In this document: piece by piece, positions 26,048 to 43,161 of the stretch | Numbering within the stretch: the first letter of the stretch is position 1 | Layout: each line of letters opens with the position of its first letter | Assembly (NCBI GenBank): GCA_015060705.1 | Contig: SUXY01000006.1 | Span: 1-64,000 of the forward strand | Reading direction: 5' to 3' | DNA: 64,000 nt | Source: Bacteroides sp. | GTDB lineage: Bacteria > Bacteroidota > Bacteroidia > Bacteroidales > Bacteroidaceae | Program-made: the position numbers and the translations under genes | The notes under the pieces: model-generated | Databases searched by the model: none | What the model saw: only the letters and a program-made list of their open reading frames with translations | What the model was told of the DNA's origin: nothing

Positions 26048-27061
26048 TTACACCAGTCTGTCCAGGAATTTTGTCAAACTATCTTCTTTGTCGATGCCCA
26101 ACTTCTCTTTCAGGCGGAGTTTCCTCCGGCTCACCGAATTACCGCTGATGCAATAAATCTGCGACAGGTTCTGGAGGCTCATGTGGATTTTCACCAAACA
26201 ACAGAAGTTGATGTCCTTCTCCGTCAGTGCCGGAAATTCCCGCTTCAACTTTTGTGTAAAGTCCGGATAAGCGCTGTCCAGCATCAGCTGAACATCTCTC
26301 CAGTCCACTTCCGAGAGCAGGATGCGCCCCTCATTGCCTTCCAGTTTCTCCAGCACATGGATGCGTTTCAGCAGTTCCTCCCGCATCAAGGCATTCTTTT
26401 CGCGGAGCATCGCCTCCTTCATGCGGAGCGAAGCCATTTCTTCCTGCTGTTTCAATGCCAAGTTCCTCCGATGGAAGAAATGGACCATCCCTGCTCCTAC
26501 CAGCAGAATGATGAATACCGACAGCCCCAATATCAGGATGATGTGGTGTTGCCTTTCCATCTGAAGCTCGTTCAGCTTGTTTTTCTGTTTCAAGGCAAGG
26601 TAGTCGTTCTGGTCCTTCTGAATCAGGATATCCTTGAACAAATCGTTCCGTGTATCTGCCTCCTCCAGCCACTTCCCCATCCTTTCGTAAGCCAGGAGAG
26701 CCAAATGTCTATCCGGACCGTCCGCCACTATCTGATAATGCTTCATAGCCGAATCCGGCTGATGCAGATGCATCCGGATATCCCCTTCTATCAGATTGAC
26801 AAAAGGCACATCCTCTCGGGTCATCACCTGGCGGAGCTTCTTCAGATAGGCTTGAGCCAACTCGGTATCTTTCACTTGTGCCAACAAGTCCACCATCCGC
26901 GAAGCATAGAGGAACACTTCCTTGTCCGTACCCTTTTCCAGGATACGGTAATAATGTGCCAACAATGAATCGGGAGGCAGGCTATCGGTATTCTTCACCT
27001 GTCCTTGCACAGTCCCTACCATTGCTCCCAGCATCAGGAGCCAATAGACCAGTCTTTTCAT
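26048..27061 (-). CDS. Membrane-anchored HTH protein with TPR-like periplasmic part
   Basis: 337 residues. A signal peptide (1-20) is followed by a helical TPR-like region (about 28-150), one membrane span (about 172-195), a charged coiled coil (196-245) and a C-terminal HTH-like domain (about 277-325, PALTEKDINFCCLVKIHMSL then ISGNSVSRRKLRLKEKLGI). The C-terminal domain resembles LuxR-type DNA-binding domains and should be cytoplasmic. The design suggests a one-component sensor with a periplasmic input and DNA-binding output. It overlaps the upstream propeller lipoprotein gene by 4 bases, so that protein may be its sensing partner. It is a candidate regulator of the motif shared by the three propeller promoters. 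Confidence 0.82.
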   Translation of the reverse strand: MKRLVYWLLMLGAMVGTVQGQVKNTDSLPPDSLLAHYYRILEKGTDKEVFLYASRMVDLLAQVKDTELAQAYLKKLRQVMTREDVPFVNLIEGDIRMHLHQPDSAMKHYQIVADGPDRHLALLAYERMGKWLEEADTRNDLFKDILIQKDQNDYLALKQKNKLNELQMERQHHIILILGLSVFIILLVGAGMVHFFHRRNLALKQQEEMASLRMKEAMLREKNALMREELLKRIHVLEKLEGNEGRILLSEVDWRDVQLMLDSAYPDFTQKLKREFPALTEKDINFCCLVKIHMSLQNLSQIYCISGNSVSRRKLRLKEKLGIDKEDSLTKFLDRLV

Positions 27062-28263
27062 TTTCTTGTCCGATGTTTTCCGTAGATGATGTAATTATTG
27101 TCATTCCTGTCGATGGTCGCTTTCAGTTCCAGCAGCCTTTGCTTTCGGGGCGTATCTCCTTCGGGACACTCTTTCAGGAATCCTTCTATCCGTTCCAATA
27201 ATGCACCGGGCAGGATGTTCTCCGTGTAATATCCACCGAAATCTGTCAGCATTTCTATCGGCTCATCGCACATCCAGTCGTTGTAGATGCGGCAGAAACC
27301 TCCCTTCAGTGTCTCCTTGTCGATGATGAAATACCGCTCCTGGTCAGACATGTACGAATCTTCCGTCATTTGTTTGGAAGTGGCCACCCTTCCGTAGAAG
27401 TACAGAGGCAGTTCCCGATAATTGTGCAGACAGATGGGCTTTTCGCCGAAGTCTAGGGTAAAGTAAGGTACCGGATCCGCATCCTGCAAGTTCCACAGAT
27501 AGAGGGTGTCCTTTCTCAACTCGAAGAAAGGCGACACATGGAAACTCCATTGCCCTATTTCTTTCCGGAAGACAATTTCATTGCTGAAGTTCGGTTTCAG
27601 CTTCAGGTGACGGGGCGGTATACTCATACAGAGGTTTCCCTCCAGGTCCTGCACCCATGCCATGTTCGGCAGATAGCTGAAAGGAAGCGAAAGCACCGCC
27701 ACCCGGTTCTTTTCCACATCCACTTGGAATACGCCCTTGGGGACGTACATCTTCGGATGGGGCAGATGCAAGGGGATGCTCCCCTCGTACTTGCCTTCCA
27801 GATTATAGGACAGGATTTCACGGGTTCCCTGCTGCAGCAGATAGATTCGTCCGTTCTTTTCGTCTATCTGCACATCGTATATCCACTTATATTCGTCCGT
27901 ACCCAGACCGATGTTTCCCACCTTGCACACGAAGGTTCCATCCTTGCGGAAGAGTTTGCAAGGAGTCTTCCAATTGACTACCAACATGTAATTGTCGGAC
28001 ATACAGACATAGCCCGGTTCCACCAAGGCCTCCTCCCGATTTTCCAAGCGGACTATCTGTAGCTCTTCCACCAAAGCACTGAGCGGAAGATTCATCGTAT
28101 CTTTCAGCAGGTCGAGACTGGCGACAGTGAGTGGATGCCCGTTCACCGTTTCCATTCTTGCCACTACGGGCATATCTTTCCATGCCGGATGCCGCTTTCC
28201 TGTGGGCGAACAAGCCGTTCCCAGTAGGATTATCAGCAGAAGTATCAGTTTTATGTTTTTCAT
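27058..28263 (-). CDS. 6-bladed beta-propeller lipoprotein
   Basis: 401 residues from ATG 28263; a longer frame upstream would run through the promoter. Signal peptide with lipobox GTAC. It shows repeated propeller-blade sequence such as FRKDGTFVCKVGNIGLG and YDVQIDEKNGRIYLLQQGT. It belongs to the Bacteroidetes 6-bladed propeller (DUF4934-like) group and is clearly homologous to the N-terminal half of the protein at 29701-32115 (same MPVVA start and DVQIDEKxGRIY). Function unknown; likely surface or periplasmic ligand binding. It is co-transcribed with the membrane HTH protein. Confidence 0.82.
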   Translation of the reverse strand: MKNIKLILLLIILLGTACSPTGKRHPAWKDMPVVARMETVNGHPLTVASLDLLKDTMNLPLSALVEELQIVRLENREEALVEPGYVCMSDNYMLVVNWKTPCKLFRKDGTFVCKVGNIGLGTDEYKWIYDVQIDEKNGRIYLLQQGTREILSYNLEGKYEGSIPLHLPHPKMYVPKGVFQVDVEKNRVAVLSLPFSYLPNMAWVQDLEGNLCMSIPPRHLKLKPNFSNEIVFRKEIGQWSFHVSPFFELRKDTLYLWNLQDADPVPYFTLDFGEKPICLHNYRELPLYFYGRVATSKQMTEDSYMSDQERYFIIDKETLKGGFCRIYNDWMCDEPIEMLTDFGGYYTENILPGALLERIEGFLKECPEGDTPRKQRLLELKATIDRNDNNYIIYGKHRTRK

Positions 28264-28313: not shown

Positions 28314-28431
28314 CAAAGTTAGAGTTTAAATTTAAGTCTGCCAAAAAACGGATATGGACATTTTCGCTTTTTATCGTTTGTAACATGCTGATAATCAAGG
28401 ATAGTTAAAATATCCATGTGGACATTTACAT
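28314..28431 (-). promoter_or_regulatory. Propeller promoter 1: -7 box plus two TGGACATTT cores
   Basis: -7 box TAACTTTG on the minus strand (28314-28321). Plus-strand cores TGGACATTT at 28355-28363 (A) and 28419-28427 (B). Core A begins 34 bp from the far edge of the -7 box, exactly as in the other two propeller promoters, and core B 98 bp. Confidence 0.65.
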
Positions 28432-28527
28432 GAAGATATTCGATTCCAGAGAAATTTCAGATAAGAATATGCACTTTTTACCGTATAAGAAGACTCATAA
28501 CCGTTCCATCTTGAGAGACCTTTACCG

Positions 28528-28610
28528 CAAGAATTCACTCAAAACTCCTTGCACTCCTGCAACCGGAATTTAATGGTTTGTGAATCAGAATGAAATCGGT
28601 GGCAGGAGTG
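28528..28610. repeat. Intergenic repeat R, copy 1, with inverted arms
   Basis: Bases 28528-28566 match 33492-33530 with one difference. Arms CACTCCTGCAACCG (28552-28565) and CGGTGGCAGGAGTG (28597-28610) form an inverted repeat with one mismatch. It lies about 265-350 bases upstream of the propeller gene start at 28263. The rest of the 377-base gap holds the propeller promoter. Confidence 0.6.
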
Positions 28611-28640
28611 CTGTAACTTCAATGTTGCCCCTGCCATTGT

Positions 28641-29279
28641 TTATTGCAAGCAATTCTTGATGAAAGTTTCTATGTCTTTAGAAGTGATGTGATAAATAGG
28701 ATTTAATTGTTCGAAATGTTCGTCGCGCACAAAGCGATTCCCATTGGTAAGCATAGCCAACAGATTTTTGGTTTTCAGTCGATGACCGGAATAAGTTAAG
28801 GCCAAACTTATCATTTCCTGAATTGGAATTCCTGTCTTTAATATGGAATAGATGTCATAATAGTCTCGGAAATTACTACGTCGCATCATTACTTCCATTT
28901 TCATAGCACCGATAGACTTGACATCTGCCAATTTGAGATTGTTCAAATAAGGAATTGCCTGGTTGACTGGAGAATACTTTGGAGAAGCATAAAATGAGAA
29001 TTTCACCCCTTCTACTAAAAATTCTACATGGTCTATATCTAAAATGTCACGATGTTGTATTTCGCCGATTGTGGATAATTCTTTTTCTATCTGATACCAA
29101 GCTACTTCCTGCTTATCTGTTTTGGAAGTTCGCCATGTCATAAAGTCCAAATCTTCGCTTTGGCGAGTATTAATTTGTAGTGACAAAGCTGTACCGCCTA
29201 CCAAAAGGTAGGGTTTGATACATTCCAAAGCAGATACAGCTTCGAAGATGTGTGATGTATGTGGTGCCAATCCTTTCAT
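28641..29279 (-). CDS. AbiEii-like nucleotidyltransferase (toxin family)
   Basis: 212 residues. The minimal nucleotidyltransferase motif is LLVGGTALSLQ followed by SEDLDFMTW, with the paired acidic residues of the catalytic site. KLADVKSIGAMKMEVMMRRS and RDYYDIYSIL are typical of the AbiEii/AbiGii toxin family (DUF1814). These enzymes can act as toxins of type IV toxin-antitoxin systems or in phage abortive infection. Its start overlaps the upstream small gene by 4 bases, as a toxin-antitoxin pair would. The cognate AbiEi-type winged-helix antitoxin is not present; the partner is a different small protein. Confidence 0.85.
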   Translation of the reverse strand: MKGLAPHTSHIFEAVSALECIKPYLLVGGTALSLQINTRQSEDLDFMTWRTSKTDKQEVAWYQIEKELSTIGEIQHRDILDIDHVEFLVEGVKFSFYASPKYSPVNQAIPYLNNLKLADVKSIGAMKMEVMMRRSNFRDYYDIYSILKTGIPIQEMISLALTYSGHRLKTKNLLAMLTNGNRFVRDEHFEQLNPIYHITSKDIETFIKNCLQ

Positions 29280-29605
29280 ACAAACATTTTGTTGAAGTGA
29301 CGGGTTGCCATGGATTTGATATAAGCATCAGGGCATTTTGCCTTGAAGTAGTACCATGCCAAGAAACGGTTCAATGAATATAGATATTCTTCTTGCGGTA
29401 TCAAGTGTTCCAACCATACTTGCTTGATGGTACGATAAGGGTAAATTTTAAACAGTAAGTCTATTTCTGCCAAATCGAGGTGCAATAACGTTTTCTCAAT
29501 CAAGATTTCGTCTGAAATATCCTTGATTGATTCTTCGTTATAAGACCAGAAACAATGTTCTTGCTTTAACTTCGACAACAACTCTGACTTGATAGCATTT
29601 ATCAT
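29276..29605 (-). CDS. Small protein paired with the AbiEii-like toxin, probable antitoxin
   Basis: 109 residues from ATG 29605. A TTG at 29626 lies inside the promoter box and is rejected as a start. The sequence FWSYNEESIKDISDEILIEK, then EIDLLFKIYP and LNRFLAWYYFKAK is of a type I have seen beside AbiEii-like genes in Bacteroidetes (DUF6922-like; assignment from memory and uncertain). It is not related to AbiEi. It reads first and overlaps the toxin by 4 bases, the usual antitoxin-toxin order. The -7 box TAAATTTG at 29624-29631 leaves a very short leader. Confidence 0.72.
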   Translation of the reverse strand: MINAIKSELLSKLKQEHCFWSYNEESIKDISDEILIEKTLLHLDLAEIDLLFKIYPYRTIKQVWLEHLIPQEEYLYSLNRFLAWYYFKAKCPDAYIKSMATRHFNKMFV

Positions 29606-29623
29606 ATACCTTATTTTCTTCTG

Positions 29624-29631
29624 CAAATTTA
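29624..29631 (-). promoter_or_regulatory. -7 promoter box of the AbiEii-like pair
   Basis: Minus-strand TAAATTTG, 18 bases upstream of the ATG at 29605. It sets the start of the small partner gene. Confidence 0.55.
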
Positions 29632-29700
29632 CGATATTTTGTGCAGAAAAACAATCATTCGTTACGTTTTGTCATATCCCTCATCGCTTCCAACAAAGCT

Positions 29701-32115
29701 TTATTCAAATATGACCATCACCCATTCGTTTTCTTTCAACGCTTCTACACCTTTTATCTGCTTCTGCAATGCCGGGGTCAATGCCTTGGAAGAATAATAT
29801 CGATACATTTTGCCGTTTCCATAGGCTTGGGGCCACCAATCCAAGCCTCCCAACAAATCGCCATCCAGCATCGCATCCGTCAGTTCCTTGGGTTGCGGCA
29901 GGGTGAAGAACTCGCCCGTTTCCTTGTTATATACCAACGAATAGAGCTTGACGGCCTTCTTCTCGCGGTTAATCGGACTGTCGTGTCCTTGAGACATACG
30001 GATGAAGATGAACTTGTCCGTCTCTATCCATCCTTCTATCAGATAAGCACGGTCGATGTTTGCCCCACTGATAACTTCTTTTCCCGTGGCATAATGCAGG
30101 CTTCCGAAGTCCAACTGATACACGGCTTGAAGCGTATGGTTATCGACCAACCGATACACCGTATCATCGTAAGGAAGGCGGACGAAGTGCTGCCCGTCCA
30201 ACGAATAGGCCGAAATGCTTTCGCCATTGCGGTAGTCAGCCGTAGGCAGATAGTCGGGCATCAACTCAAAGCGACAAAGGGTATCGCCCCTGAAGGTATG
30301 CGTATAAAACTTCCCGGTATTCTTCTTGTAAGTAATGAATGCATCGGAAGTGAACAACAAAGGATACACTTCGGGCGACAAGCTTTGATAGTCCTGCGTA
30401 TGCAAGACCGAATCACTTTGCATCAGTTTTTCCAAGGAGAAGGTAGCCATTCCGCCACCCTCATAACGTGCCCGGAATTGGCATTGTACGATTCCTTTTT
30501 CCTCATCGACACGAAGCGGCTTGCAAAGGGTGTATTTATAAGTATAGGCATACGCCTTTTCATAAAGCTTATAATGACACACATTCTTCACCAGCATCCG
30601 TTTCTTGTGATAAGCACTGTCCAACAGATACAGACCCTCCGTATCGAGGAACAGATAGCCATCCTTATACGGCTGAGGAAAACTTAAATCCACCGCCCAA
30701 AGCGGAACCATCTTTACCGAGCTTCCCACTTCACTCATCTTCATCGGACGGACATTCTTTAATGCTTGCTCGATGTCCAGACGGACACCACCCTCGTTCT
30801 TGACCACCGCTTCGTAACGGATGCCCGGCACTACGATGTCCTCTTCCTTCAAGGTAGCAGCCTTCACTTCTTCTGCCTCCTTTTGGAACTCCGGTTTCAC
30901 GAAAGTCCGAGGCATCGATGGCGGAGGAGTAAGCTTGCCCACGAATACGTAATTATTCTCATCCTCATCGATGGAGGCTTTCATCTCTTCCAGCTTCTTG
31001 CGACGTTCGGCATCGAGGGAAGTATTTTCTTTCAGCACTTTCTCCAAGAGATCGAGCAAATCGGCAGGTTCGATGTTCAGCGTATAATAGCCATCCAATC
31101 CTTCCAACCAAGACACGGGAGCATCTCCCAACCAATCGTTGTACAACCGATAGAAGCATCCCTTCCCTGTCTGCTTATCTACCAGATAGTGTTTAGGGTC
31201 GGTCGAAGTCGTCTGTCGTTCATTGATTTGCAGGATGGTAGCTATTGTCCCAGCGTAATGATAAGGATATTCACTATAACTATGTATTTGAAGTTCCTTG
31301 CTACCTTTATCTACCCAATAGACAGGTCTCAGACTTCCCTTGTCCATATCCAGATGATGAATGGGGGCATCCTTCAATCCGGTAATCTGCACACTCAGCT
31401 CATCCGTGGCTTTTAAGGAAAGCACCTCATTGCTGAAGTCGGGCACCACCTTGAAATGCTCCGTTGAAGTCTCGCTGATGAAGTTCCCTTCCATATCCTG
31501 CACCCAAGCCACCACCGGCAGATAGTCGAACGGAAGCAACACCACCCCAATGCGGTTGTTCTCGGCATCCACCTTGATTCGTCCTTTCGGCACACGGAGC
31601 TTCTCGTACTTCTTGTTCAGCGGAATGTTCTTCTCAAACTTCCCCTGCAAGTCATACACCAGGATGGAAGTGGCATTCCAAGGCAACATATAGATTCGTC
31701 CGCTCTTCTCGTCTATCTGCACATCATAAACCATCGTGTATTCACCGGGACCTTGGCCGATACTTCCCATCGTACCCACAAACGTACCATCCCGACGGAA
31801 GAGCTTGTAAGGAATATGACTATCGGAAGCGACCAAGAGATAATTCTCGGAAACGGACACACGCCCTTTTCCCACCAAGGCTTCATCCCGATTGTCGAGT
31901 TTCACCATTTGCAGGTCTTCCACGAAATAACTCAAAGGGAGGTCGATGGTATCTTCTATCAGTTCAAGGTTACAGACAGTCAGCTCTTGTCCATCCCTTA
32001 CTTCCTGATGCGCCACCACCGGCATATCTTCCAGCGAGACTGTCTTCCGATTTCCTCCCGAACAGGCAGCCAATGCTATCGCCATCACTGCTAAACATAC
32101 TTGCTTTGCTTTCAT
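29701..32115 (-). CDS. Large double-propeller lipoprotein (6-bladed propeller family)
   Basis: 804 residues. Signal peptide with lipobox LAAC (MKAKQVCLAVMAIAL start). The first ~390 residues are homologous to the propeller lipoprotein at 27058-28263; the rest, from about residue 420 (PSMPRTFVKPEFQK onward), is a second propeller-like module that may correspond to a DUF4933-type domain. It is twice the usual length, so it appears to be a fusion. The first 69 bases of the gene region are nearly identical to those of the upstream gene, which shows a recent duplication or conversion of the leader-peptide segment. It overlaps that gene by 4 bases. Confidence 0.8.
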   Translation of the reverse strand: MKAKQVCLAVMAIALAACSGGNRKTVSLEDMPVVAHQEVRDGQELTVCNLELIEDTIDLPLSYFVEDLQMVKLDNRDEALVGKGRVSVSENYLLVASDSHIPYKLFRRDGTFVGTMGSIGQGPGEYTMVYDVQIDEKSGRIYMLPWNATSILVYDLQGKFEKNIPLNKKYEKLRVPKGRIKVDAENNRIGVVLLPFDYLPVVAWVQDMEGNFISETSTEHFKVVPDFSNEVLSLKATDELSVQITGLKDAPIHHLDMDKGSLRPVYWVDKGSKELQIHSYSEYPYHYAGTIATILQINERQTTSTDPKHYLVDKQTGKGCFYRLYNDWLGDAPVSWLEGLDGYYTLNIEPADLLDLLEKVLKENTSLDAERRKKLEEMKASIDEDENNYVFVGKLTPPPSMPRTFVKPEFQKEAEEVKAATLKEEDIVVPGIRYEAVVKNEGGVRLDIEQALKNVRPMKMSEVGSSVKMVPLWAVDLSFPQPYKDGYLFLDTEGLYLLDSAYHKKRMLVKNVCHYKLYEKAYAYTYKYTLCKPLRVDEEKGIVQCQFRARYEGGGMATFSLEKLMQSDSVLHTQDYQSLSPEVYPLLFTSDAFITYKKNTGKFYTHTFRGDTLCRFELMPDYLPTADYRNGESISAYSLDGQHFVRLPYDDTVYRLVDNHTLQAVYQLDFGSLHYATGKEVISGANIDRAYLIEGWIETDKFIFIRMSQGHDSPINREKKAVKLYSLVYNKETGEFFTLPQPKELTDAMLDGDLLGGLDWWPQAYGNGKMYRYYSSKALTPALQKQIKGVEALKENEWVMVIFE

Positions 32116-32119
32116 ATCT
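32051..32119. repeat. 69-bp direct repeat (copy 1) covering a lipoprotein signal sequence
   Basis: Nearly identical, with two differences, to 33214-33282. Each copy spans the start codon and signal-peptide codons of one of two adjacent propeller lipoproteins whose mature parts are quite different. Confidence 0.85.
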
Positions 32120-33278
32120 GATGTGTTTTACATTTTATCATTACCAATACTTGATTATCATCTTCCTTTACCCGATACTTCTTGGCGAATTCGTCGGGAC
32201 ACGCATCCGCACCGGCCACACCTATCAACAAATTCGGATAAACACAAGCCAAAAGAGTAAAATCGGGGCCACCCCAATCATTCGTTATTTTCTGTTCTCC
32301 ATTCTCATCGAACACATTGAAGAACTCTCCCGTTTCCTTGCGGAATGCTCCCAACAAAGGACCGCCTTGCACACTCGATGTACACATACATTTATAATTA
32401 AAGAAAAGGTATTGAGGGGTATCGTAGATGTAACTGATACGCAATCCGTGAGCCATATCCAGAACTTCTTCCCAAGTCTGTTCGAGGTCCAGACGATGGA
32501 TGCCCGGATGGATGGAAGCATAAGGAACAGGCTGCAACGAACCGGAAGGGAAGTAATACAAGGAATCATTGTATGCCTCTTTGTAGGCCGTAGGATATTG
32601 TGAGGAAAATTCATTCTCCACCCAATAGTTCTGCACCGGTTTCTTCTCGCGCCAAGCATTCGTATCTATGCAAGTCAAGGAATCACCCTCGGCATCCAGC
32701 ACCAACCAACTGTATGCATCTTCTTTCTTGGGGAACTGGTCGTCACTGATATAAGCCGCCAACTTGCCATCTTTCAAGGCCAACAAACGATAAGGTTGCT
32801 TGGTCAGTTTGATGTCTTTTATCCAATTCCCTTCCCAATCATACTTCTTGATCCGATTGAGCATATCGAGAATGTAAAGACTTCCATTATCAACAACCAA
32901 CTGATAGCACCAATAAAACTCCTTGGGCCCGTTACCCTTGTTTCCAATGTTACGCAAGAACTTCCCTTTGTCGGAAAACACATATACGGTCTTGGAGTAA
33001 TCGTCCATCACATAAAAGGTACTATCTTTATAGCGGAAGTGGTCGAACTTCTCAGCCAAGACACATTGAGGGGTTGTTTCCAAAGGAACATACCACACCG
33101 AGTCCGCCAATTCACTCAACTTCAACTCCCTTTGGGAAGCCAGCAAATCATCCGGCATCGGATAGGTAATGAACTTGCCTTCTTCCTGCTTACGTTCATC
33201 GCCATACGATTGCTTTCCTCCCGAACAGGCAGCCAATGCTATCGCCATCACTGCCCAACATACTTGCTTTGCTTTCAT
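32112..33278 (-). CDS. 6-bladed beta-propeller lipoprotein
   Basis: 388 residues. The lipoprotein signal (lipobox LAAC) is almost identical to that of the next gene. The mature part has LSELADSVWYVPLET, FSDKGKFLRNIGNKGNGPKE and LYILDMLNRIKKYDWEGN, the usual start and blades of Bacteroidetes 6-bladed propeller (BF-type) proteins. Function unknown. It is the first gene of a two-gene unit with the double-propeller protein (4-base overlap). It is driven by the second of the three matching promoters. Confidence 0.83.
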   Translation of the reverse strand: MKAKQVCWAVMAIALAACSGGKQSYGDERKQEEGKFITYPMPDDLLASQRELKLSELADSVWYVPLETTPQCVLAEKFDHFRYKDSTFYVMDDYSKTVYVFSDKGKFLRNIGNKGNGPKEFYWCYQLVVDNGSLYILDMLNRIKKYDWEGNWIKDIKLTKQPYRLLALKDGKLAAYISDDQFPKKEDAYSWLVLDAEGDSLTCIDTNAWREKKPVQNYWVENEFSSQYPTAYKEAYNDSLYYFPSGSLQPVPYASIHPGIHRLDLEQTWEEVLDMAHGLRISYIYDTPQYLFFNYKCMCTSSVQGGPLLGAFRKETGEFFNVFDENGEQKITNDWGGPDFTLLACVYPNLLIGVAGADACPDEFAKKYRVKEDDNQVLVMIKCKTHQI

Positions 33279-33282
33279 ATCT
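33214..33282. repeat. 69-bp direct repeat (copy 2) covering a lipoprotein signal sequence
   Basis: Partner of 32051-32119; see that entry. Confidence 0.85.
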
Positions 33283-33295
33283 TTATCTTTTGGTA

Positions 33296-33425
33296 CAAAG
33301 TTAAGGACTAAAAATGGAAGTACAATGAAAAGGTGATGTACATTTTTAAATCTTAAAAAATCTTTAATTGTTTAATTTCCAACGATTTAATCATAAGCAT
33401 GTATTGACCATGATGGACATTTCAT
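33296..33425 (-). promoter_or_regulatory. Propeller promoter 2: -7 box plus TGTACATTT and TGGACATTT cores
   Basis: -7 box TAACTTTG on the minus strand (33296-33303), 18 bases from the ATG. Core A (TGTACATTT, 33337-33345) begins 34 bp from the far edge of the -7 box. Core B (TGGACATTT, 33414-33422) lies at 111 bp. Confidence 0.62.
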
Positions 33426-33491
33426 TTTGTGGGTAACCATTAAACGCCTAAAATTCCCCAAAGCTTGTCTTTTCATTGAATATGCATACAT

Positions 33492-33575
33492 CAAGAATTC
33501 GCTCAAAACTCCTTGCACTCCTGCAACCGGGAGTTAATACCTTAATGTACTAAAGCAAATGCGGTGGCAGAAGTG
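33492..33575. repeat. Intergenic repeat R, copy 2, with inverted arms
   Basis: Bases 33492-33530 match 28528-28566 with one difference. Arms at 33516-33529 and 33562-33575 repeat the inverted structure of copy 1. It lies about 215-300 bases upstream of the propeller gene start at 33278, similar to copy 1. Confidence 0.6.
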
Positions 33576-33615
33576 ACCAGAAGCAGCTCCATACGTGACT
33601 ATAAGCGTGAGGCAG

Positions 33616-33699
33616 TCCCATTAGCTGGAACCATTTTTCCCATTAGCTGGTACCAAAAGTTCCACTTAGTGGGACAAAAAGTTCCAATAGGTGGAAAAG
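33616..33699. repeat. Four-unit 22-bp tandem repeat with palindromic cores
   Basis: Units begin at 33616, 33638, 33660 and 33682 (the last shortened). Each has a core of the type CCxnTTAGnTGG; unit 3 holds the perfect palindrome CCACTTAGTGG. The exact 22-base period puts all cores on one face of the helix. The surrounding 661-base gap (33279-33939) holds no convincing gene; it contains the promoter, repeat R and this array. Confidence 0.7.
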
Positions 33700-33939
33700 T
33701 TGGAACTAAATTTTGTTGGATGAGGAAGGACGATGCTTTGGTGACAGAAAGGTGACAGGAGAATCCGGTCCTTGCACCATAACACACTGAGAATCAATAA
33801 GTGTTGAAGGAGTGACAGATATTTTGACGCAAATTAAATTCGATGGGTTTTTGAGGCTTTGGGGATGCCTTGAACTTATATAAAATCCCGATGAAAGAGC
33901 GATTTTTGCCCATTTCATCGAGATTTCGGTTTCTAATTC

Positions 33940-35097
33940 TTATTTCTTGAACTCAATCACCATCAGCACCGGATTGTCTTCCTCGTGCAACTTCTCGGCA
34001 ATGCTTTGGAGAGTGCCTTTCAGCTTTCCTTCTGCCAACGCTTCCTTCAGCTTGAAGGCTTCCATCAAGAGGAAACAGCGATTGGAACTACCTGCACATT
34101 GCTTCAACTTATCCAAGGTAATGTTCAGCGAAGGATAGTCGCTATGGATGAAAGTAGGCTGAAGGATGGACTTCTGCTTACGATCGTACGCCACAAAGGT
34201 ACTTTTCGTATCAGTAGCAGCATTGCCTTTGAATTCGAGTAAGGCTTGTTGGCGCTTGAAGAAATAATAACGGGCATTGGCACCGGTTATCACCAAAAAG
34301 TAATCCTTGCCGACAGCTTCCTGATAGGAAGGAGTGCGCTGGACAAGGGGAGTCAAGGCATCCGACTTTTCTATCCGATAGATGACATCAGCGGTGACTT
34401 CGTTCACATAGACTTCATCGCCCAACTTATAAAGCGAGCTGACATGCTTTGCATTCAACTTCATATCACCAAACGGCCCTCCCGTCGCTTTCACAATGTT
34501 TTCGTCCGTCTTGGTAAAAGGAAGGGAAGTGGCGCTTCCGTCCTTCTTCGAGAACAATGTCACCGGTTGGTAAGGAGCGAATTGACGGCCATCCGGGTTC
34601 TTGTAATAGATAAGGTGCGTGTCCGAATAGTGGTACATATCGCCTTCACGCATCGTTCCCTGGGAGTTGAGGGTACGAAGATAGGTTCCGTCCGGAGCGT
34701 AAATACGAATTTTCTGACGGAAATTGTCCTGTACATAGACTTCGCCTTGCTTCCAGTCCACATCCAGATGATAGATTTGGGGATAATCCTGCGGTCCTTG
34801 TCCCAAATGATTGAACGAACCAACGACCTTACCGGCTCCATCGAACACCAGAATGTCGCCCTCCTTCTTGTTGAATCCGGCTATCCCTTCATCGGAGAGA
34901 TGGACTATCTTGCCATTGAAGAGCACATCGTCCGTTGTACCCAAAGGAATATAGCGGACGCTTGCCACCTCGTCCAACCGAATGGTCTTTTCCGGATATA
35001 CCTTATTCATATCCACGCAAATGTCTTGAGCGAATGCTCCCGTCTGCCCCACCGCTGCTATCAGCAATGAAGCAATCCATGTAGTTTGTGTTTTCAT
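33940..35097 (-). CDS. Secreted 6-bladed beta-propeller protein
   Basis: 385 residues with a standard signal peptide (ending GAFAQD), not a lipobox. IRLDEVASVRYIPLGTTDD, then FDGAGKVVGSFNHLGQGPQDYP and VDWKQGEVYVQDN are typical of the 6-bladed propeller family, with blades continuing to about residue 320. It is probably a periplasmic binding protein; ligand unknown. It is monocistronic and has the third copy of the propeller-type promoter upstream. Confidence 0.82.
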   Translation of the reverse strand: MKTQTTWIASLLIAAVGQTGAFAQDICVDMNKVYPEKTIRLDEVASVRYIPLGTTDDVLFNGKIVHLSDEGIAGFNKKEGDILVFDGAGKVVGSFNHLGQGPQDYPQIYHLDVDWKQGEVYVQDNFRQKIRIYAPDGTYLRTLNSQGTMREGDMYHYSDTHLIYYKNPDGRQFAPYQPVTLFSKKDGSATSLPFTKTDENIVKATGGPFGDMKLNAKHVSSLYKLGDEVYVNEVTADVIYRIEKSDALTPLVQRTPSYQEAVGKDYFLVITGANARYYFFKRQQALLEFKGNAATDTKSTFVAYDRKQKSILQPTFIHSDYPSLNITLDKLKQCAGSSNRCFLLMEAFKLKEALAEGKLKGTLQSIAEKLHEEDNPVLMVIEFKK

Positions 35098-35126
35098 GAC
35101 TTGTTATTTTATTAAATTAGCATATA

Positions 35127-35254
35127 CAAAGATAAGAAGACTCAACGAGAAGACCATAAAATCGATATGGACAAAACGTCTTTGCAGATATTTATAAACA
35201 ACTGATTTGCAGCGATGTAAGTTTTGTCCACATGGACATTTACATATGGACATG
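35127..35254 (-). promoter_or_regulatory. Propeller promoter 3: -7 box plus TGGACA cores
   Basis: -7 box TATCTTTG on the minus strand (35127-35134). Core A (TGGACAAAA, 35168-35176) begins 34 bp from the far edge of the box. Core B (TGGACATTT, 35233-35241) lies at 99 bp, with a further TGGACAT at 35247. Confidence 0.65.
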
Positions 35255-40342: not shown

Positions 40343-40350
40343 TATTTTTG
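40343..40350 (+). promoter_or_regulatory. -7 promoter box of the AraC-type regulator
   Basis: TATTTTTG. The TTG at 40348 lies inside it, so the start must be downstream at ATG 40369. Confidence 0.55.
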
Positions 40351-40368
40351 CATAAAATCTATCACATT

Positions 40369-43161
40369 ATGCCACGAATTTTATCACTAATCATCATTTC
40401 CATATGGGCTTTTCTGAATCTTTCAGGAAACAATGTACATTATTCATATACGCAGCTTTCTTTGGATAAAGGTCTTTCCCAAGCCAGTGTCCAGGCCATC
40501 CTTTTAGACAGCAAGGGCAACCTCTGGATAGGAACCCGAAACGGATTGAATCTTTACGCCCAACAGAAAATGACGAATTATTACCACTCCTTGAAAAACG
40601 TACATTCCATTCCCGACAATCAAATCACCCATTTGGCAGAAGATTCATTGGGTAATATCTGGATAGGTACCCCCAAAGGACTAGCTTTATACAACAAAGA
40701 AAAGAATGCTTTCGACATCACTACCCGAAGCCGCATCCAATCATCACTCTGTGTGGAAGGAGGTATCCTCTTCGGTGGAGACAATGTGATCTATTTCTAC
40801 AACTACCAAACCAAACAGTTAGAACATCGTACTCATCTCCAGCCGGAAGGTTCCCAAGTTCTTCCCATTCAATATCGAGTGGAAAAGATGATTCCTATGG
40901 AAGAAGGAAAAATCATGGTCGCTACCCGACGAAAAGGAGTGTTCATCTACCATTCCCAAACCGGACTATTCGAACCTTATATCACCGATCATCCCGATGT
41001 GCTATTGATTAGCATTTGTCGCACTGCTGACAAGCGTGTTTTTGCCTCTTTTTATACCAAAGGGGTTTATTGTTATGATGCACAAGGAAATAAAATGGAT
41101 TACTTCAACACCGACAACTCCCCTTTAACCAACAATTATGTCATGGATTTGCTCGAATACAAAGGCAAACTATGGCTGGCTACCGATGGCGGAGGTATTA
41201 ATTTGATTGATATGGAAAGCGGTGAGTTTACAATCCTGAATCATACCACAGGAAATCCGTCTTCCCTCCCCGTCAACTCCATCATCAAACTATACAAGGA
41301 CTATAATGACAATTTATGGATAGGAAGTGTACGTGGAGGTGCCATTAACGTGAAAGAAAGCTACATCCACACGTATCAGGATGTCCTTCTCAACCAACCT
41401 ATCGGACTAACAGAGAAAGCCGTTACCAGCCTGTATGAAGAAGAAGACGGACGACTTTGGATAGGTACAGACGGTGGCGGCATCAATTTATATCATCCTG
41501 AATCAGATACGTTTACCCATTATCCCATGACCTTCGGAGACAAAGTAATATCCATGACCAATCTTTCGGAATCGGAATTACTCATATCCATTTATACGAA
41601 AGGACTATTTACTTTCAATAAGCGGACAGGACAATACAGACGCTTTGTAGTAATGAGTGAACCGATCAACCGACAAGTATGCTTCAATGGATATGTCACC
41701 TTGGTCAATGAAGTGGCTAACGATAAAATCTATATCATAGGCTACGGCGGTTGGGTTTATCACAAAAAAGAAAATAAATTCAGCCCTTTACTACTTCCTG
41801 AACAATATCAGAAAACAATAGCTCCCCTCCAAATGGCATACGCCAATAGTGAGTTTTCATTGTTGAGACAAGGGAATGTTATCTTCATGGCCGATACTAA
41901 AACCGATAGTGTCCAAGTGTTGACTGAAGCTCCTATTGATGAGATAGTTGCAGCCATGACCTACGATAAGGAACAAAGAACCATTTGGATAGGTACCAAC
42001 CGAGGATTAAGTTACTATAACCTGGACGAAAAGGAATACAAGCACTTCTCTACCGGATTGTTCAGTACCGTTTCCCACCTCACGCTAGACACGCAAAGAC
42101 GATTGTGGATTTCGGCCAGGAACAAACTGTTCTCCTACTCTATCCGTAACAATAAGTTTACTTCATGGAATCAATCGGACGGCTATCTGCCCAACGAAAT
42201 CCAATCAAAATACCACACGACCCGCAACAAGGAATCTATCTATTTGGGAGGCTCCGAAGGATTGGTCAAAATTGCCGCTTCATTACCAATCCAACAAACG
42301 GATGAGCCTCACATTCATTTGTCCGACATTCATTACAACGGAAAGTCTGTCATCAGTCAGATAGACAACAAATGTTTCGAAGTTCCTTGGGATTATCACT
42401 CGCTTATGCTCACGTTTGGGGTAAAAAGCCAAGATATATTCCAAAAGTACTTACTGAAATACATCCTTCGAAGTTCCTCCGGTGAACACACGTTCGAATC
42501 TTATGAGCCCCAACTGAACCTGTCTTCTCTTTCACCTGATACATATGAAATTCTTGTTTCATGTTATACCAAGGACGGAAGCGAAAGTCAAGTCGTTTCC
42601 CTTTTAAAGCTTACCGTCAGTCCCCCTTGGTATAAAAGTACATGGTTCATAAGTATGCTGATATGCTTATTGATCGGAACAACCGCTAGTATTGGATATG
42701 GGATCTATCGGAAGAAAACCCGTCAGATGAAAGGAGATGTCGGTGAATTCCTGCAAACTGTGCTCCAATCATTAGATGAACCGGAAACGATGGAAACCGA
42801 AACAGCCAAACCTTCTTTGAGCGAAGCTGACCAAGCTTTCCTCGACAAGATGGATAAGCTGATACAAGACAATTTGTCGAACGATGAGCTTTCCGCCAAA
42901 TTCCTGACCGACCATTTGGCCATGAGCCGAGCTTCCTTATATAATAAGGTAAAGGCATTGACGGGTATGGGCGTGAATGACTACATCAACCGCATCCGTA
43001 TCGAACGCTCCGTATATCTGTTGACAAACACCAACCTGAGCATCAATGAAATTTCGTACGAAGTAGGATTCAGTTATCCACGTTACTTCAGTACCTCCTT
43101 CAAGCAGGTAAAGGGCATGACCCCCACCCGCTTCAAGGAAGAAAATAAAAAGAAAGAATGA
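40369..43161 (+). CDS. Membrane-spanning sensor with periplasmic propeller and cytoplasmic AraC HTH
   Basis: 930 residues from ATG 40369. After a signal anchor the periplasmic part has two-component-regulator propeller repeats (GNLWIGTRNGLNLY, GNIWIGTPKGLALY, GRLWIGTDGGGINLY, TIWIGTNRGLSYYN) and a Y_Y_Y-type Ig domain (about 645-740). A membrane span near 760-780 (WFISMLICLLIGTTASIGYG) leads to a linker and a C-terminal AraC helix-turn-helix (about 825-925). There is no histidine kinase or receiver domain, unlike classical hybrid two-component regulators. It probably senses a glycan in the periplasm. The divergent GH16 gene is the likely target. Confidence 0.88.
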   Translation: MPRILSLIIISIWAFLNLSGNNVHYSYTQLSLDKGLSQASVQAILLDSKGNLWIGTRNGLNLYAQQKMTNYYHSLKNVHSIPDNQITHLAEDSLGNIWIGTPKGLALYNKEKNAFDITTRSRIQSSLCVEGGILFGGDNVIYFYNYQTKQLEHRTHLQPEGSQVLPIQYRVEKMIPMEEGKIMVATRRKGVFIYHSQTGLFEPYITDHPDVLLISICRTADKRVFASFYTKGVYCYDAQGNKMDYFNTDNSPLTNNYVMDLLEYKGKLWLATDGGGINLIDMESGEFTILNHTTGNPSSLPVNSIIKLYKDYNDNLWIGSVRGGAINVKESYIHTYQDVLLNQPIGLTEKAVTSLYEEEDGRLWIGTDGGGINLYHPESDTFTHYPMTFGDKVISMTNLSESELLISIYTKGLFTFNKRTGQYRRFVVMSEPINRQVCFNGYVTLVNEVANDKIYIIGYGGWVYHKKENKFSPLLLPEQYQKTIAPLQMAYANSEFSLLRQGNVIFMADTKTDSVQVLTEAPIDEIVAAMTYDKEQRTIWIGTNRGLSYYNLDEKEYKHFSTGLFSTVSHLTLDTQRRLWISARNKLFSYSIRNNKFTSWNQSDGYLPNEIQSKYHTTRNKESIYLGGSEGLVKIAASLPIQQTDEPHIHLSDIHYNGKSVISQIDNKCFEVPWDYHSLMLTFGVKSQDIFQKYLLKYILRSSSGEHTFESYEPQLNLSSLSPDTYEILVSCYTKDGSESQVVSLLKLTVSPPWYKSTWFISMLICLLIGTTASIGYGIYRKKTRQMKGDVGEFLQTVLQSLDEPETMETETAKPSLSEADQAFLDKMDKLIQDNLSNDELSAKFLTDHLAMSRASLYNKVKALTGMGVNDYINRIRIERSVYLLTNTNLSINEISYEVGFSYPRYFSTSFKQVKGMTPTRFKEENKKKE

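Follow-up and report, generated by a model that had tools for sequence, protein, structure and literature searches.

Phased TGTCCAT-class sites at Bacteroides propeller promoters and a candidate family of membrane-anchored regulators

We analysed a window of 64,000 nucleotides (nt), positions 1 to 64,000 of contig SUXY01000006.1 from the Bacteroides sp. assembly GCA_015060705.1, in which three minus-strand transcription units encode 6-bladed propeller proteins and one of them also encodes a candidate regulator. Their promoters, P1, P2 and P3, carry short TGTCCAT-class cores at set positions upstream of the −7 box. These cores, and the regulator family that probably reads them, are the subject of this report. 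The genes and promoter features are listed below, with the means of identification in brackets.

27058–28260, minus strand: P1 operon gene 1, DUF5128 6-bladed propeller with lipoprotein-like N-terminus (Pfam, sequence)
26048–27061, minus strand: P1 operon gene 2, candidate regulator of 337 amino acids with shortened N-terminus, transmembrane (TM) helix and predicted GerE-type helix-turn-helix (HTH)
32112–33278, minus strand: P2 operon gene 1, DUF5128 propeller with lipoprotein-like N-terminus (Pfam, sequence)
29701–32115, minus strand: P2 operon gene 2, 804-amino-acid DUF5128 and DUF4933 protein, overlapping gene 1 (Pfam)
33940–35097, minus strand: P3 gene, DUF5128 propeller protein (Pfam)
28314–28321, minus strand: P1 −7 box TAACTTTG (sequence, genome pattern search)
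28342–28345, minus strand: P1 TTTG of the −33 type, 20 nt from the −7 box (sequence)
28355–28360, minus strand: P1 proximal core TGTCCA, 33 nt from the box, TGGACATTT on the plus strand (sequence, pattern search)
28411–28424, minus strand: P1 distal site TGTCCACATGGATA, an imperfect palindrome 64 bp above the proximal core (sequence)
33296–33303, minus strand: P2 −7 box TAACTTTG (sequence, pattern search)
33337–33342, minus strand: P2 proximal core TGTACA (TGTACATTT at 33337), 33 nt from the box (sequence, pattern search)
33414–33419, minus strand: P2 distal core TGTCCA (TGTCCATCATGGTCA), 77 bp above the proximal core (sequence)
35127–35134, minus strand: P3 −7 box TATCTTTG (sequence, pattern search)
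35168–35173, minus strand: P3 proximal core TGTCCA (TGGACAAAA at 35168), 33 nt from the box (sequence, pattern search)
35225–35238, minus strand: P3 distal site TGTCCATGTGGACA, a near-perfect palindrome 65 bp above the proximal core (sequence)
35247–35252, minus strand: P3 additional distal TGTCCAT, 79 bp above the proximal core (sequence)
28385 (P1), 33367 (P2) and 35198 (P3), minus strand: T 25 bp above the proximal core (37/42 promoters)

The start of the regulator gene overlaps the end of the P1 propeller gene. Four proteins of the three units match PF17170 (DUF5128) at 68–105 bits against a cut-off of 22.9; a first homology scan, with propeller 3 as query, returned no relative. All three promoters have the TAnnTTTG −7 box of the sigma-ABfr type, for which PMC12632263 gives the Bacteroides consensus TANNTTTGY. 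The boxes lie base for base where the first-pass annotation had placed them, at 28314–28321, 33296–33303 and 35127–35134. Its proximal cores, said to begin 34 bp beyond the box, do so in P1 to P3, which leaves exactly 33 nt between core and box (N33), and the second core that it reported, TGGACATTT, was found at 28419, 33414 and 35233. Read along the transcribed strand, the proximal cores are AAATGTCCA (P1), AAATGTACA (P2) and TTTTGTCCA (P3); those of P1 and P3 are non-palindromic and TGTACA of P2 is palindromic by itself. About 19–20 nt above the box, the −33 position reads by eye TTTG in P1, ATTG in P2 and TATG in P3. A loose TTTG-like set is found at this position in 89% of the propeller promoters with N33, in 33% of the other promoters with N33 and in 27% of negatives.

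In the own assembly (2.95 Mb, 118 contigs, 88% complete), each pattern was searched alongside its reversed version, which served as the chance control. TGTCCA-N{20,50}-TAnnTTTG gave 16 matches against 19 for the reversed control, so the motif pair alone is not enriched. The enrichment resides in the spacing and exceeds chance. N33 occurs in 4 of the 16 matches, and all four (P1, P3, C49:48248 and C97:24000) lie upstream of DUF5128 propellers. The wider core TGT[AC][CT][AG] (TGTMYR), picked after the promoters had been inspected, gave 13 matches at N33 against 2 for the reversed control. Nine of the 13 stand at propeller or regulator operons: P1–P3, two on contig C49, one each on C97 and C16, and two on C78, one of which heads a regulator–propeller operon. 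The other four fall within long open reading frames (ORFs). The C16 and C78 promoters carry the TGTCCGCACC core variant. The arrangement is thus uncommon at unrelated genes, both here, where every TGTCCA-N33 match is at a propeller, and in the genome scans below. Contrary to what had been proposed, the regulon is not local; its sites are dispersed over contigs including C49 and C97, as well as C16 and C78 with TGTCCGCACC.

The spacing was then counted at 60 loci (L142–L201) chosen by homology to the regulator, with the motif playing no part in the choice: 27 with the best-matching regulators (L142–L168) and 33 weaker ones (L169–L201). ORF calls missed the regulator of L147, and L170, L172 and L201 have no flagged gene. 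A propeller is present in all 27 of the former loci, with both genes called in 26, and was called in none of the 33 weaker ones. Near-duplicate promoters were removed before counting. Of the 210 deduplicated TAnnTTTG promoters of the 60 loci, 26 have the wide core at N33 and 4 have it at N32; other spacings average 0.66 promoters each and reach 6 at most. For strict TGTCCA the count at N33 is 16, and other spacings average 0.17. The 26 divide into 15 of 23 propeller promoters, 11 of 166 others and 0 of 21 regulator promoters. Adding the stretches from the own genome and its relatives (336 promoters, 280 after deduplication) gave 32 of 280 at N33 and a mean of 0.84 elsewhere, the next peaks, of 7 promoters each, falling at N44 (an 11-bp tandem repeat) and at N111 (the distal site). 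The arrangement is present at propeller promoters of other species as well.

The 11 non-propeller N33 promoters adjoin a regulator gene, one of them lying just upstream of it, and their targets include DUF3244 proteins, a C39 peptidase, a Porph_ging protein, DUF1573 and an AraC regulator; a site at a C10 peptidase gene was taken out as a near-duplicate. Since the N33 sites adjoin the regulator while the targets vary, it is the pairing of regulator and site that is conserved, not the target gene. Describing it as a local regulon of unknown purpose was too narrow, as the sites are dispersed and the same layout recurs beside related regulators with other targets (DUF3244 proteins, C39 and C10 peptidases, and others).

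A second site accompanies the first. TGT[AC][CT]A[TC] in the same orientation lies 80–119 nt from the box in 31 of 37 positive promoters, and 26 of 243 negatives have a same-orientation copy anywhere within 48–195 nt. A reverse copy without a forward one was seen in 2 of 37 positives (at 140–141) and 17 of 243 negatives. Any reverse match at all occurs in 13 of the 37, and in 10 of these it is the other half of a palindromic core, offset by 1 or 7 bp; the distal site of the C49 paralogue promoter is a perfect palindrome, TGTCCATATGGACA. Because the 280-promoter set includes stretches obtained via the motif or the propellers, the count was redone on the 60 homology-fetched loci alone, where the forward distal copy is present in 26 of 30 positives and 17 of 180 negatives, and a reverse copy only in 0 and 13, respectively.

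Distances from core to core fall into three classes, 55–59, 64–69 and 75–80 bp, with none between (36 promoters after deduplication from 41, 30 of them with the copy). These classes correspond to about 5, 6 or 7 helical turns, and the Rayleigh R is about 0.6 for periods of 11–11.5. In a set of 42 promoters, used without further deduplication, 37 have a T 25 bp above the proximal core, and phased A/T preferences recur at about −35, −25, −15 and −5 from that core. An IHF-like WATCARNNNNTTR between the two sites was also considered (10/37 positives, 3/243 negatives; none of 500 permuted patterns did as well). We treat it as no more than a lead: the pattern was relaxed after the sequences had been viewed, and the position and strand of the match vary.

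Co-occurrence with the regulator was examined across 393 genomes of the order and 61 of the genus, two overlapping sets that both include the own genome. The two-site pattern, TGTCCAY-N{47,73}-TGTCCAY-N32-TAnnTTTG, gave 10 matches (9 promoters) in 3 of the 393 and 17 matches in 8 of the 61, or 10 distinct carrier genomes over both sets; its reversed control gave no match in either. Nine genomes of the genus match the C49 regulator at E ≤ 1e-40, and seven of them carry the pattern; of the 52 others, one does (Fisher 6e-7). In one of the seven (G016) the site adjoins a more distant regulator than that match, and in the exception among the 52 (G032) the site likewise adjoins a more distant regulator (L141, L262). 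The order carriers other than the own genome, G058 and G197, have the best non-own regulator matches among 198 genomes. Of 22 distinct two-site promoters (cut by hand to 14), 17, including L264, lead into a propeller and two (L261, L262) adjoin a distant regulator; three are unassigned (L252, L255 and L256), the last with a propeller further downstream. Although the pattern allows 54–80 bp from core to core, only 55, 64–68 and 75–79 occur. For the single-site pattern, the four genomes with a close regulator (own, G009, G010 and G031) gave 17 matches against 0 for the control.

The regulator at 26048–27061 has close paralogues in the own genome, on C49 and C110, as well as a relative on C114, and its longer relatives carry tetratricopeptide repeats (TPRs). 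By hydropathy, a TM segment lies 90–240 amino acids before the C-terminus in 40 of 40 regulators (above 90 bits and 300 amino acids, near-duplicates included), and some have an additional N-terminal hydrophobic stretch. The C-terminal domain aligns with five own GerE domains in hhalign (E 9e-7), and the AlphaFold model of the HTH resembles GerE/NarL domains. Together these point to a GerE-type HTH with a putative DNA-binding role. Pfam PF00196 was not listed for the window regulator up to E 10, a search that loses most weak matches to the HMMER filters; on C86, two paralogues from the own genome exceed the PF00196 cut-off. A search of the HTH profile against PDB sequences gave nothing significant. 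Just past the window on the same contig (G000:C36:64197-64526) lies another homologue of the regulator HTH, with 31% identity. A distant relative in Phocaeicola vulgatus ATCC 8482 (L188) shows this promoter layout too. The distant regulators at L178, L180, L183, L184 and L188 adjoin DUF3244 or C39-peptidase genes (by Pfam at L178, L184 and L188), with ABC-exporter-like genes nearby by eye, an arrangement like that of peptide export clusters.

Core variants track the regulator clades, with a Mantel r of 0.36 at the core against 0.01–0.24 in windows clear of it (35 pairs). Probably, TGTCCATA belongs to the C36/C49/C110 type of paralogue, TGTACATC (P2 and one C49 promoter) to the C114 type and TGTCCGCACC to the C78 type. 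That the variants follow the clades suggests parallel regulons kept apart by core sequence. A code based on one residue of the recognition helix was rejected, as the residues L, Q, M and Y do not correspond one-to-one with cores; only the clade-level correlation holds.

The cores are thus exactly spaced, biased in orientation, helically phased and specific, and across genomes they co-occur with the regulator family. In our judgement they are probably operators of the TM one-component regulator family that includes 26048–27061, bound at two sites and activating the propeller operons. The first-pass annotation had pictured an activator near −45 with an upstream partner site, and a regulator near −45/−50 with a partner on the same DNA face is still the best reading, activation being deduced from position only. 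Such a regulator would comprise a TPR sensor, presumably periplasmic, one membrane helix, and a cytoplasmic coiled coil with a GerE/LuxR-type HTH. The HTH would bind the proximal TGTCCAT site, in part an 11-bp tandem repeat, just above the −33 element, and the second copy, 5, 6 or 7 turns upstream on the same face, would cooperate with it. The bound, membrane-tethered proteins could then contact sigma-ABfr RNA polymerase next to the −33 element and so activate transcription. With its gene in the P1 operon, the regulator probably raises its own synthesis. By analogy with FimS, as described in PMC11053733, the ligand of the sensor may be a periplasmic peptide or protein.

A wider proposal, which we hold with less assurance but still favour, is that a widespread, undescribed family of Bacteroidales regulators, TPR-sensing, membrane-anchored and of the GerE type, reads a single grammar: a TGTCCAT-class site exactly 33 nt above the sigma-ABfr −7 box, a same-orientation copy 5, 6 or 7 helical turns higher, a nearly invariant T at −25 from the core, phased A/T tracts between the sites, and paralogue-specific cores that separate the regulons. 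Three observations weigh against these interpretations. Kinship among the promoters inflates all p-values. In 56 relatives counted as lacking a close regulator, the single-site pattern still gave 58 matches against 38 for the control. A hold-out set drawn by a broad profile was positive at 5 of 29 loci; its core matches all lay at N32–34 or N44–45 (10 of 10, of spacings 12–49 tried). Extension to all TPR-TM-HTH proteins was dropped given these 5 of 29 loci; most of those proteins have other HTHs.

The regulator might instead bind the same sites and repress, so that the propeller operons stay off until ligand release. Palindromic distal sites together with a downstream second copy would also fit a repression loop, and the sign of control cannot be read from DNA alone. 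However, the proximal core stands above the −33 element, clear of the −7 box, and the regulator sits within the P1 operon that it would control. Such a site upstream of the −33 element is a usual position for an activator. We consider repression unlikely.

Slightly less likely again is that an unlinked or different regulator binds the sites, for example the Reg_prop–AraC hybrid at 40348–43161, with the TPR-HTH gene a fellow target. This AraC-type DNA-binding protein is encoded 5 kb from P3, and unlinked operons carry the sites too. However, in the stretches analysed around the sites on C49, C97 and C78 the ORFs are at most 520 amino acids long, too short for the hybrid (domain scans covered some of these ORFs). 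In distant species the site adjoins the TPR-HTH gene with quite different targets, and the genomes with two-site promoters nearly coincide with those that have the TPR-HTH regulator.

Descent of the whole pattern from one ancestral promoter, with a functionless spacing, is highly improbable: P2 and C97 are alike, a 23-bp repeat is common to P1, P2 and C97, and three L142 promoters are near copies of one another, but N33 and the phase classes are kept in deduplicated promoters with different flanks and unrelated targets, and the distal distance steps by about 11 bp without drift. The earlier statement that the surrounding sequence is otherwise different needs correcting, given the evident likeness of the P2 and C97 promoters and the repeat above the P1, P2 and C97 boxes. 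The repeat is an exact 23-bp copy, GCAGGAGTGCAAGGAGTTTTGAG, at 28538–28560, 33502–33524 and L056:8818-8840, about 200–220 bp above the respective boxes, and an inverted GCACTCCTGC copy lies further upstream of P1.

Other genes were noted around the propeller operons. Between the P1 and P2 operons, the stretch 28641–29626 holds an AbiEii-type nucleotidyltransferase gene (PF08843) and, ahead of it, a 116-amino-acid ORF with no Pfam match; the two are perhaps an inserted type IV toxin–antitoxin pair. Other propeller clusters, on own contigs C60, C96 and C48 (L057, L058, L068), contain BlaR1-type M56 proteins, with BlaI-type repressors in those of C60 and C96, which suggests that a second control system, of another kind, serves this gene family.

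The regulator family shares features with several known systems. It resembles NarL/FixJ/GerE domains (VraR, DosR, LiaR, NarL) in its modelled C-terminal fold and profile match; unlike these, the window regulator is predicted to be membrane-tethered, with no receiver domain found by Pfam. The core sequence of the family is, we presume, distinct from NarL-type cores. Transmembrane transcription regulators (TTRs) join an extracytoplasmic part, a TM helix and a cytoplasmic DNA-binding domain in one protein (PMC10269533), a layout that the family appears to share by hydropathy and HTH match. The window regulator, however, has no match to a Pfam HTH model, and the words TPR, tetratricopeptide and LuxR are absent from the main text of that survey. 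FimS of the Porphyromonas gingivalis FimS/FimR system has a periplasmic sensor of multiple TPRs, according to PMC11053733, and the NCBIfam FimS model gives a weak match (E 2.9e-7) to the TPR portion of L179, a distant relative; FimS, in contrast, has a histidine kinase end and signals to FimR, whereas the regulator family would link sensor, TM helix and GerE HTH directly. The BT3442 family (NF053779) has a TPR architecture and C-terminal homology in common with the regulators. These score 42–107 bits (50.2 for the window regulator) against a curated cut-off of 940 and are therefore not members. BT_3442 itself is described as a multi-domain TPR protein encoded within a cluster of MACPF genes, and the word regulator is absent from the main text of that source (PMC2954219).

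The sigma-ABfr promoter, the GerE fold and membrane one-component regulators are of kinds already known. Searches of the literature on Bacteroides TPR and one-component regulators and propellers turned up neither their combination nor the operator grammar, and no title describing a TPR-TM-GerE family. To our knowledge, the control of gut Bacteroidales propeller, DUF3244 and peptidase clusters is largely open. If the proposed reading is true, regulons for surface and secreted proteins would be assignable from DNA alone, and membrane-tethered, helically phased two-site activation would become testable in laboratory commensals such as Phocaeicola vulgatus ATCC 8482.

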